The notes under the pieces: generated by a model
Databases searched by the model: none
What the model was told of the DNA's origin: nothing
The model's input: the letters and a program-made list of their open reading frames with translations, nothing else
Position numbers and translations under genes: made by a program
In this document: one piece after another, positions 1,386 to 5,730 of the stretch
Layout: each line of letters begins with the position of its first letter
How positions within the stretch are numbered: position 1 is the first letter of the stretch
DNA from: Lentimicrobium sp.
GTDB lineage: Bacteria > Bacteroidota > Bacteroidia > Bacteroidales > 4484-276
Direction of reading: 5' to 3'
NCBI GenBank assembly: GCA_012516825.1
Contig: JAAYWF010000154.1
Coordinates: forward strand, 1-36,640
Length of the DNA: 36,640 nt

Positions 1386-3518
1386 TTAAAATCTGATTTT
1401 AAGCTGAGCTTTTATCTCGCTATATGTGTTTCCGTCAATTTTAGTAGTTCCGTTACTGATGGTGGTTTTATTACTATAATAGGTTTGCGAGAGCCGTAGC
1501 CAGAAATCAATATTTTCGGAAATTTCGTATTTAAGCATTACATAAAACCGGCTTCCCTTATAGTAATAGGCAGGGATTGAAAAAACATAAAGCAAGTCAT
1601 TTTCGTAAGCATATATCCTTTCGTCGTAACTGTCGGTATCGAAAAGCGCATACCGTAATGATACGTTATAGGGTTTTGCTGCAGGGTTGTAGTTTATATC
1701 CTGATAAATGATGAATCCGTTTTGTGTAGTAGCTTCAGGTTTATCGTAAGTAAGAAACTCAATTCTATTTTTAAGTGTAACTGTTGAGGATGCTTTGTAT
1801 GAAATAAAAAACCTTATGCTCTCTTTATGTGTCTCGCCGGTTTTGGCCATAATAAGGTTTTCGGTTTCGTTTAGTTGTTTTTGCTTGTAACGGTACCGGA
1901 GATACATTTCCATTCTTTTGTAAGGGTGATAATCAATTTGTGCAAGGTATTCAGCGCCTCGCGAAGGTGAGTCAATCCTGTAACGTAACCATGGGGATGA
2001 AAACAGATCGGAGTAACCTCTGAAGGTCCAGTTTCGATGCAAATAGACCAGTAAACCGGCAAACATGCCTTTTTCGTTTTGATTATTTGTATTCTCGGCA
2101 ATGGCGTTGCTGTATAGGTTTTGGTATTTAATTCCAAAATTTCGGTAATATGCCGATAACGTTATTGAGGGATGAAGCGATGCCTGAAATCCGGCTAAAT
2201 AGGCTTTGCCGCCATTCTCACTGCCGGAAGCTTCGGCAAAAATGTTAAACCTTTTAACAATAAAATTTAGGTCAACACCATAATTAAAGTTCTCTTTACC
2301 TTGAAAGTTATATTTGCGATAAAGCTGATCGGGTAGCTGCAAGGGCTTGTCAAATAAAGTTTTAAAAGAGGTGGCTCCAATCTGAAACTTGCCTTTCCTG
2401 TATCTGACATTTGCGCCATAAAGTGTTTCGTGGACGGTGTTTTTTTTATCAATCTCGTTAGGGGTACGGTGATATCCGGTCTCTTGTAAAGAGGTAACAA
2501 ACTGCTCCTCCTGACTGATAGAATCTTTAGTTGCGATATTTCCATCTATTTTTTTGGAGGAAAAAAATCCGGATATTTTAAAGTTGTGCAAGGAAAAGGT
2601 AACAGCCGTGCCACGCATATAACGGTTTTCGTTTACTGATGTATTAGGCCTTACTCTTCGTTGATTTTTTATTACACCAATAGCATCGGGTGATTTGCCG
2701 AACGACAGGCCGCTCCACAATGTCAATCCCTGTCCGAATTCGAGTTGATAATCTCCTATTATAAGCTGTTCAAGCGCTCTCATCTCACTAACGGAAACAA
2801 ATCCGGAATAAAAATCAAACCCATTGGGTTGCGATCCTTTAAAAAACTCCTCGCCTGGATCCTTTTCCGCAGTGATGCCAAGCCTAATTTTATTGAAGTA
2901 ATTAAACCCGTAACGCAGATAATATTTATCAGGATTTCCAAGAAAATAACTACCCGGATTAGCATATTTCATCGAATCAGAAACATTTGCATAGCCGGCT
3001 TGTTTTTCTAATACCCTGCTGTAGCGAAGGAATAAATCATTCCGACCGTATTTAACTATATTTTTCATTTTAAAAGAGATGCGTGGCTTTTCCGGATCAA
3101 CTGAAACTAACGGCTCAAGAAAAGAGATTAGCTCCTGATCGAAACCATCAATAGCCATCAACTCATAAAGTGTTACAAACGGTCCGTAAACATTTCGGTA
3201 TTCGATGATTTTATGAATTTGTAGCTCACTCAAAAAAATCAGCTTTTTCATTTGAGTAAAAGATGCAAAATTCAAATTAAGAGGGTTTTCAAGAAAATAA
3301 TAAATATCTTCGAGCAGGTCGGTATAATCCATTTGTTCTTCGGTCTGCTCCGCGATTTCTTCCAATTTGCTGTTAAGTAATTCCATATATTCCGGTGATA
3401 CCGGGAGCTGCTGTGCAAGGCTGACATCAATCATCATAATTAGCATTGCAATTATTAAACAAAACCTGTCTGCGACCGATTTATGTTTGATGATATGATG
3501 AGGCGGGATGGTTTTCAT
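1386..3518 (-). CDS. Helix-hairpin-helix (ComEA-like) domain protein with a probable outer-membrane beta-barrel
   Basis: Signal-peptide-like N-terminus. NPLNLNFASFTQMKKLIFLSELQIHKIIEYRNVYGPFVTLYELMAIDGFDQELISFLEPLV matches the tandem HHH pattern of ComEA. The long remainder alternates aromatic/polar residues and ends in KAQLKIRF (terminal F). Confidence 0.75.
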   Translation of the reverse strand: MKTIPPHHIIKHKSVADRFCLIIAMLIMMIDVSLAQQLPVSPEYMELLNSKLEEIAEQTEEQMDYTDLLEDIYYFLENPLNLNFASFTQMKKLIFLSELQIHKIIEYRNVYGPFVTLYELMAIDGFDQELISFLEPLVSVDPEKPRISFKMKNIVKYGRNDLFLRYSRVLEKQAGYANVSDSMKYANPGSYFLGNPDKYYLRYGFNYFNKIRLGITAEKDPGEEFFKGSQPNGFDFYSGFVSVSEMRALEQLIIGDYQLEFGQGLTLWSGLSFGKSPDAIGVIKNQRRVRPNTSVNENRYMRGTAVTFSLHNFKISGFFSSKKIDGNIATKDSISQEEQFVTSLQETGYHRTPNEIDKKNTVHETLYGANVRYRKGKFQIGATSFKTLFDKPLQLPDQLYRKYNFQGKENFNYGVDLNFIVKRFNIFAEASGSENGGKAYLAGFQASLHPSITLSAYYRNFGIKYQNLYSNAIAENTNNQNEKGMFAGLLVYLHRNWTFRGYSDLFSSPWLRYRIDSPSRGAEYLAQIDYHPYKRMEMYLRYRYKQKQLNETENLIMAKTGETHKESIRFFISYKASSTVTLKNRIEFLTYDKPEATTQNGFIIYQDINYNPAAKPYNVSLRYALFDTDSYDERIYAYENDLLYVFSIPAYYYKGSRFYVMLKYEISENIDFWLRLSQTYYSNKTTISNGTTKIDGNTYSEIKAQLKIRF

Positions 3519-4339
3519 CTCTTTGTTTTGAAGTTATATACAGCCGAAAACTGAGGAGAAAAGCCAAGCACATTGTGTACTGATGATGCGAAATCAATTG
3601 TAAACCGGTTGAGGTTTATTCCAAATCCAAAGGTGTATTGTCCGGGGTTAGAAGAGAGTCCTCCTCTAACATATACCTCGTCAATGATCCTATATTCTAA
3701 ACCAAGCTTCAACGACGGATCGAAAGATGTCTCTTTTTTTGCTTCTACCGAAAGGATTATACTTTTATCAAAACTCCATGCTGCGCCAATTCTCATGACG
3801 GCAGGTATTCGCTCATCGGCATATTTTGTCAGTTTGGTATGGATAGGATTAAAAACATGCATACCCAAGGTAATATCAGGTTTGATCTTTGTCATTAAGC
3901 CGGCTTCAAAAGTGGCTACACCTTTTTTTCCATAATCATTACCCAAGCTTTTATGCAGATAGTCCAACTGCAACCCTGCGGCAAAATAGTCGCCAAACTT
4001 TCGTGAATAGGCAAGGCCAAATTTACTTTCGTTATATAATTCATTGCCGAAGCGAACTAATTCAAAGCCAAATACGCCGCTGCCAACAGGCAATGTTGCT
4101 CCGCCTGCTTTCAGGCTCATCTCTTTAACCAAAAACCTGTTTTCGAAGTAAAACCCTGCTGAGGTCTTATTGTAAAAAGCAAGGCCGGCCTGATTGTTAT
4201 GTATAGACCAGAAGTCAGCTAATGCAACGGAAGCATTTCCCATTGCTGCCGAACGACCTCCTTCCGGAAAATTGATATGCGCCGACAACACATTTGGAAA
4301 GAAAAATAAAAGTAACAGAAACGGTAAAAAAGATTTCAT
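3515..4339 (-). CDS. PorV/PorQ-like outer-membrane beta-barrel protein
   Basis: Signal peptide, then INFPEGGRSAAMGNASVALADFWSIHNNQAGLAFY, the typical N-terminal pattern of PorV/PorQ-type barrels. Stop overlaps the next start (ATGA). Confidence 0.65.
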   Translation of the reverse strand: MKSFLPFLLLLFFFPNVLSAHINFPEGGRSAAMGNASVALADFWSIHNNQAGLAFYNKTSAGFYFENRFLVKEMSLKAGGATLPVGSGVFGFELVRFGNELYNESKFGLAYSRKFGDYFAAGLQLDYLHKSLGNDYGKKGVATFEAGLMTKIKPDITLGMHVFNPIHTKLTKYADERIPAVMRIGAAWSFDKSIILSVEAKKETSFDPSLKLGLEYRIIDEVYVRGGLSSNPGQYTFGFGINLNRFTIDFASSVHNVLGFSPQFSAVYNFKTKR

Positions 4340-4659
4340 AGTTTCACTTTTAATTGAATCCCATTTACAACATAAAAATCTGCACAGAAAAATATTTTAG
4401 TCTTTGGTTAATACCGTTCCCTGCCACTAAATAAGTAGGGCTAAACGCACAAAGCCTTACGCAATAATGACAAAATTAAACTTTTACACATTCCCGATCG
4501 GTATAATTTTTAACAAAATGAAAGACTAAAATACAAACCATCACAAAGTTAAAAAATCTGATTAATGAACAGCTAATTGTTATCGTTTTCTTTTCTTTGT
4601 ACTAAGAAAAAGATATTAAAATGACGTTGTTATAAATTTTTCAACAAAAATCTTGTTTG

Positions 4660-5337
4660 ATGCCGGTGTATGAGCTTACTGACGATCTGGTCTTTCCTCA
4701 TCCAAAATTAGCTGAACCTGATGGTTTACTTGCTGTTGGAGGGGATTTGAGTGTTGAAAGGCTTCTTTTAGCTTATGCCAATGGTATTTTTCCGTGGTAT
4801 GAGAAAAGCTCGCCAATACTTTGGTGGTCGCCAAACCCGCGAATGGTTCTTTTTCCTGAAAAATTTAAGATTTCCAATTCTTTGAAACAGACAATAAAAA
4901 AGCAGAAATTCAAGATTACTTTCGATTGTGATTTTTCTGCCGTTATAAAAGGATGTGCAGAGACAAAACGGTTGGAACAACACGGCACCTGGATTGTACC
5001 CGAAATAGAGCAGGCCTACAACCGTTTGCACGAAGCCGGATTTGCACACTCGGTGGAGGCTTGGTACGATAACAGGTTAGCGGGAGGGCTTTATGGAGTC
5101 TCCATAGGTAAGGCCTTTTTTGGCGAGTCTATGTTTTATAAGGTTCGCGATGCTTCTAAAGTAGCTCTTGCTTTTTTGGTTGAGAAATTGTTGGGCTGGC
5201 ATTTTCATTTTATTGATGCCCAGCAGGAGACAGCTCACATGATTAGCTTAGGCGGCGAATTGATAGATATTGATCACTTTTTAAATCTGCTAAAAAACGC
5301 TTTAAGTTATCCAACATTAAAAGGAAACTGGAGTTAA
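4660..5337 (+). CDS. aat: Leucyl/phenylalanyl-tRNA--protein transferase
   Basis: FPHPKLAEPDGLLAVGGDLSVERLLLAYANGIFPWY...WWSPNPRMVL...GGLYGVSIGKAFFGESMF...DAQQETAHMISLGG. The ORF track starts at a TTG; the ATG at 4660 is preferred. Confidence 0.95.
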   Translation: MPVYELTDDLVFPHPKLAEPDGLLAVGGDLSVERLLLAYANGIFPWYEKSSPILWWSPNPRMVLFPEKFKISNSLKQTIKKQKFKITFDCDFSAVIKGCAETKRLEQHGTWIVPEIEQAYNRLHEAGFAHSVEAWYDNRLAGGLYGVSIGKAFFGESMFYKVRDASKVALAFLVEKLLGWHFHFIDAQQETAHMISLGGELIDIDHFLNLLKNALSYPTLKGNWS

Positions 5338-5361: not shown

Positions 5362-5730
5362 ATGAGTTTTGAATTAAAAGGAAGGCTAATTGAAAAATAT
5401 GATTCGGTGCAGGTAACCGATCGTTTTAGAAAACGCGAATTTGTGATTGAATATCGTGAGAGTGCATCATCTTACGATTTTGCTGAAACCATTAAATTTC
5501 AACTTACCCAGGAGCGATGTGATATTTTGGATAATTTTCACATTGGCGAAGAGCTGAAAGTCTCTTTTAATATCAGAGGTCGCCGTTGGGAGAAAGATGG
5601 TCAGGTAAGCTATTTTAACAACCTCGAAGCATGGAAAATTGAAAAAGTAGTTGCAGCGCCACAGGAAATAATACCACAACATACTATCGAAGAGATACCT
5701 CCCGAACCTACTGACGATCTGCCTTTTTAA
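5362..5730 (+). CDS. DUF3127 domain-containing protein with SSB-like C-terminal tail
   Basis: MSFELKGRLIEKYDSVQVTDRFRKREFVIEY...FNIRGRRWEKDGQVSYFNNLEAWKIEKV is recognisable as DUF3127. C-terminus EEIPPEPTDDLPF. Confidence 0.85.
   Translation: MSFELKGRLIEKYDSVQVTDRFRKREFVIEYRESASSYDFAETIKFQLTQERCDILDNFHIGEELKVSFNIRGRRWEKDGQVSYFNNLEAWKIEKVVAAPQEIIPQHTIEEIPPEPTDDLPF

Follow-up and report, generated by a model that had tools for sequence, protein, structure and literature searches.

In DNA replication and repair, docking centres on the single-stranded DNA-binding protein (SSB) and its acidic C-terminal tip, which have been studied as an antibacterial target. No fewer than 17 partners are recruited by the tip of the Escherichia coli protein, MDFDDDIPF, in which the final Pro and Phe are the most conserved residues (PMC10018359). 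The domain DUF2815, found in Enc34 ORF6, had no known function until work on it revealed an SSB with an OB fold and an acidic C-terminus (PMC5686142), and in Anabaena the main SSB turned out to be a 'hypothetical' tailed protein, All4779, the annotated SSBs being tail-less (PMC3976300). For a Pantoea phage SSB, matches to both the SSB domain and the DUF3127 superfamily have been reported (PMC8004638).

Here we analyse a DUF3127 protein encoded in a 36,640-nucleotide stretch of Lentimicrobium sp. DNA (contig JAAYWF010000154.1; hereafter the window) and propose that Bacteroidota possess in it a divergent SSB-type protein with a tail (probability about 0.86), and not a mimic sharing only the tail. 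The computational evidence comes from the fold, the conservation of the tail, a sequence link to SSB, the phage context and the distribution of the family. The first-pass annotation had described an open reading frame of 122 residues with the C-terminus PTDDLPF, and translation reproduces it exactly; the product scores 81.8 bits on the DUF3127 model (gathering cut-off 27). The source assembly comprises 2.63 Mb and is about 95% complete; the closest relatives with a name are Bacteroidales MAGs, at 70% identity. The features of the locus are as follows.

4657..5337, plus strand: aat, leucyl/phenylalanyl-tRNA-protein transferase (TIGR00667, E 3.8e-57), 24 bp upstream of the DUF3127 gene
5362..5730, plus strand: DUF3127 gene, 122 aa, SSB-like (translation; PF11325, E 4.3e-23; PHROG 4932 SSB, E 8.6e-26, residues 4-122)
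5365..5646, plus strand: predicted OB-fold core, residues 2-95 (AlphaFold2, pLDDT 85.4; top 50 Foldseek matches in the PDB are SSB or PriB), with modelled elements b1 2-12, b2 23-35, b3 38-49, helix 50-58, b4 64-78 and b5 81-95
5647..5706, plus strand: variable low-confidence linker, residues 96-115 (modelled without secondary structure; low conservation)
5707..5730, plus strand: acidic tip PTDDLPF and stop codon, SSB-Ct type (P121 and F122 invariant in a 30-sequence alignment; matches the canonical SSB end)

The aat and DUF3127 genes are probably co-transcribed, and we treat aat as context outside the proposed mechanism; downstream, a miaB gene converges on the DUF3127 gene. On the minus strand at 1386-4339, a 710-aa helix-hairpin-helix (ComEA-like) protein adjoins a PorV/PorQ-like outer-membrane protein.

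The assembly holds two canonical SSB genes. One of them (L003) ends in the same PTDDLPF that forms the last seven residues of the DUF3127 protein; the other (L002) has no tail. A bare DNA match of the tail pattern carries little weight, because the 2.63-Mb assembly contains two matches to GANGANNTNCCNTTYTRR and four to the reversed-pattern control; with the control outnumbering the real matches, the signal lies in the location at ORF ends and not in the count. An end of the form [DE][DE]-hydrophobic-PF-stop is found in this assembly only on the DUF3127 ORF and on L003. Among ORFs of at least 100 aa in nine other genomes, 20 carry such an end, and 17 of these encode either an SSB (nine) or a DUF3127 protein (eight). 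Related ends were also seen on a 91-aa exonuclease VII small subunit look-alike (EDLPF; L451, G007:C2:520681-520698), where they reflect chance or another tip user, on a caspase-like EACC1-type protein (SDDLPF; L477, G021:C27:90410) and on an unassigned 279-aa protein (DDVPF; L471, G101:C13:50314).

Of the genomes sampled across the phylum, 172 of 297 carry DUF3127, mostly as a single copy; in Bacteroidia, the window's class, 73 of the 74 sampled do. The tip is conserved among homologues: 166 of the 168 intact cellular ones end in PF, mostly preceded by acidic residues. In the phylum sample, which was biased toward high-scoring members, all 75 distinct proteins have a terminal PF directly preceded by two or more acidic residues; because of this bias low-scoring members were added, and 14 of the 16 intact ones likewise end in PF. 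So do all 77 relatives from named genomes, although the three sets of 75, 16 and 77 proteins are not all independent. A chance origin of the tail was rejected, since the same end recurs in nearly all homologues. The two cellular members without PF, from G001 and G016 of one family, end in EEDEA and DVDDD; a frameshift hiding their tips was considered and discarded, as the other frames contain no tip. In G077:C4, the downstream part of a frame-broken DUF3127 gene (L443/L445) still ends in DDELPF.

Within the family, P121 and F122 are the sole invariant columns of the 30-sequence alignment (37% mean column identity), which was too diverse for scanning the collection, so that two narrower alignments were used there. 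In terms of the mean majority-residue fraction across 113 sequences, the core reaches 0.52 and the linker 0.29, whereas the last four residues score 0.80, 0.87, 0.99 and 0.96. The core conserves the aromatic residues F22, F27, F40, W76, Y84, F85 and W91 and the basic residues K24, R74 and K92 (window-protein numbering). An approximate tree resolves two subfamilies, in each of which phage and cellular members are intermixed.

The phage members already bear an SSB annotation and lie among recombination and replication genes. The window protein matches PHROG 4932, 'single strand DNA binding protein', with residues 4-122 aligned to positions 2-117 of the 117-position profile; PHROG 378 and 44, like 4932, are SSB families, and RefSeq phage records use the PHROG 4932 name for DUF3127 proteins. 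DUF3127 is not, as had been supposed, wholly without an assigned function, because its phage branch is PHROG 4932; in the literature searched, the only paper mentioning DUF3127 is on a phage, and none names the cellular branch an SSB. Neighbouring phage genes encode a RecE-type exonuclease, an Erf-like annealing protein, NinG, primase/helicase and methyltransferases. None of the 48 DUF3127-bearing viral records contains a canonical SSB above cut-off, an absence that is suggestive only, as many of these records are fragments. Of 130 closed, distinct viral DUF3127 proteins, 97 end in PF and 33 do not; 18 of the latter stop at ...WKI directly after the core and resemble one clade. A set of viral contigs (L224-L249) carries near-identical DUF3127 proteins that end at WKI, with neither linker nor tip.

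These observations bear on the choice, left open in the first-pass annotation, between a second SSB-like protein and a mimic. A mimic in this sense would be an OB-fold protein that leaves single-stranded DNA uncoated and, as a regulator or competitor, sequesters or recruits SSB partners through its tip. In keeping with it, P121 and F122 are more constant than any core column of the 30-sequence alignment, and every genome searched for both proteins, the window's included, has a canonical SSB as well. Such a protein would not, however, be expected to conserve aromatic and basic core residues or to be carried by phages without canonical SSB, and the phage copies that kept the core and lost the tail are the opposite of what mimicry predicts. 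Since the conserved core residues, the phage contexts and the fold point to binding of single-stranded DNA, a true second SSB is much better supported and we consider a mimic improbable. The SSB-like half of the earlier proposal thus stands on firmer ground than its mimic half, and its main interpretation is probably right.

The fold itself was modelled with AlphaFold2 from 113 homologues, which yielded a five-stranded OB barrel of the order strand-strand-strand-helix-strand-strand, followed by the linker as an unstructured stretch and the least confident part of the model. When this prediction was compared with known structures, including SSB and PriB, it came out as an SSB-type OB fold: the best 50 PDB matches in Foldseek are all bacterial SSB or PriB (best E 1.2e-6), and the named viral structure matches are SSBs and DUF3127 proteins. 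TM-scores are 0.63/0.74 to S. aureus SsbA and 0.63/0.72 to Salinibacter SSB, at 9-18% sequence identity to SSB across the fold matches, where TM-scores of 0.5-0.63 indicate the fold class and not the function.

At the level of sequence profiles, hhalign related DUF3127 to a Bacteroidota SSB profile with a probability of 97.2 with the tail and of 91.7 after removal of linker and tail, compared to 0.1-1.3 for six column-shuffled controls; the core alone reached only 21 with a smaller alignment, so alignment depth matters. The segment FNIRGRRW...EAWKI, which had been likened to the later strands of the SSB fold, indeed aligns with the last two of them in the profile comparison. A single-sequence PDB search with the DUF3127 protein returned no relative, and the top PDB sequence match of the profile, D. 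radiodurans SSB, has an E-value of 0.087, which is not significant alone. For the window protein, no PF00436 match was obtained at E 0.05; in the 113-member alignment, all 113 proteins match the DUF3127 model and five match the Pfam SSB model weakly (best E 0.006), and one cellular DUF3127 member scores 9.3e-4 on the latter. By fold, tail and phage context DUF3127 resembles SSB, yet it lies outside PF00436 by score.

As PriB structures rank high among the fold matches, the first in sixth place, the protein might also be a PriB-like primosome factor, that is, an OB-fold dimer for replication restart and not a general coat of single-stranded DNA. However, SSB is matched as well or better in fold and profile, with mostly higher TM-scores (about 0.62 versus about 0.53), and the DDLPF tip of DUF3127 sets it apart from canonical PriB, for which no such acidic tip is known, so that we regard this assignment as very unlikely. 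Three traits of SSB, an OB fold of SSB type in the predicted structure, a disordered linker and an acidic PF tip, are present in DUF3127.

Around cellular DUF3127 genes, the recurrent neighbours, judged by eye, are aat, peptidyl-prolyl isomerases and an MnmD-like protein; no linkage to DNA-repair genes was seen in 118 neighbourhoods, and we therefore draw no functional inference from them. That DUF3127 is an OB-fold RNA- or tRNA-related protein tied to aat, its tip being a degradation or sorting signal, is highly improbable: aat does adjoin it in 22 of the 118 neighbourhoods, in two opposite gene orders in different families, and the remaining cellular neighbours are housekeeping genes, but the majority of neighbourhoods have no aat, the phage context is one of DNA recombination and replication, and the tip matches that of SSB letter for letter.

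For the divergent SSB that we favour, we envisage a core, spanning residues from about 2 to 95, whose OB fold would bind single-stranded DNA, probably in oligomeric form. The short disordered linker would present the acidic D-D-L-P-F tip, which, by analogy with canonical SSB, may dock the partners of that protein, such as RecO; RecO is encoded in the window's genome. In the window's organism, DUF3127 would act alongside two canonical SSBs, one with and one without a tail. In phages it would replace canonical SSB in recombination and replication modules, and in lineages without a tailed canonical SSB it may serve as the main recruiting hub.

The usual Bacteroidia set consists of one tailed SSB and one tail-less paralogue. 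In one family (f5), the chromosomal SSB of all six genomes of the first sample is of the tail-less type in the tree. This tail-less SSB is the sole PF00436 protein found in the f5 genomes G012, G210, G266 and G282, two of them single-contig assemblies, and no further one emerged there even with a second query and E-values up to 10. Their DUF3127 proteins keep the ends DDDDDLPF or DDDDLPF, and DUF3127 may therefore be the main SSB hub in these genomes. A wider draw of the family added eight near-complete genomes with one tail-less SSB only, while others keep a tailed one; G346, G358, G359, G361 (99% complete) and G375 (93%) yielded no PF00436 protein. In another family, the sole SSB of G007 ends in NPEDNE and its DUF3127 protein in GDDLPF; a frameshift behind the missing SSB tip was ruled out by reading the other frames, none of which holds a tip. 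The converse is seen in G001, where DUF3127 lacks PF and the SSB ends in DDDLPF. Such tail swaps fit a docking role shared by SSB and DUF3127, the latter being confirmed in the six f5 genomes of the first sample and in G007, and in some relatives DUF3127 appears to be the only SSB-type protein that is still tailed. That it took over in f5 once the tailed canonical SSB was lost, becoming the chief chromosomal SSB or the only one with a tail, and is perhaps the sole SSB in the five genomes without PF00436, is a tentative suggestion that we hold to be possible but rather doubtful.

SSB-like tips of another kind (DDDDDFPF, DEDDDFPF or DDDEDFPF) were noted on proteins of five of the six f5 genomes (L399, L400, L401, L409 and L422, from G012, G266, G210, G278 and G095, respectively); the copy in G012 is the replicative helicase DnaB (TIGR00665), and the others look alike. 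The family with these FPF tips is the same one that lost the tailed canonical SSB.

If nearly all Bacteroidia do possess a second tailed SSB, one hub is missing from every account of repair, replication restart and recombination by phages in the Bacteroidota of gut and environment. The lineages with only a tail-less canonical SSB would then show, as a natural experiment, whether the tip can sit on another protein.

Compared with the known systems, DUF3127 shares with canonical SSB (PF00436; L003 and the E. coli protein) the OB fold, the disordered linker, the acidic PF tip and a sequence link at the profile level, extending in the host protein L003 to the last seven residues; it differs from canonical SSB in a core that has diverged beyond the reach of the SSB Pfam model, in the shorter linker of the window protein and in being mostly one extra copy beside SSB. 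PriB has the OB fold in common with DUF3127, but differs in lacking the DDLPF tip and in its partners. The phage SSBs of PHROG 4932, from Flavobacterium phages and others, belong to the same family, with a full-length match that includes the tail; they sit in replication and recombination modules without canonical SSB, and about a quarter have no PF tip, whereas nearly all Bacteroidia carry cellular DUF3127 as a gene of the chromosome. DUF2815/Enc34 ORF6 and All4779 are precedents for re-annotating DUF3127 as an SSB, although the former has an OB fold and tail of T7 gp2.5 type and is confined to phages, and the latter is a typical SSB according to its authors (PMC3976300), whereas DUF3127 forms a separate, more divergent family. 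Proteins of the SSB kind, and the SSB label of the phage branch, were thus already known; what is new is the cellular branch and its possible takeover of the tailed SSB role.
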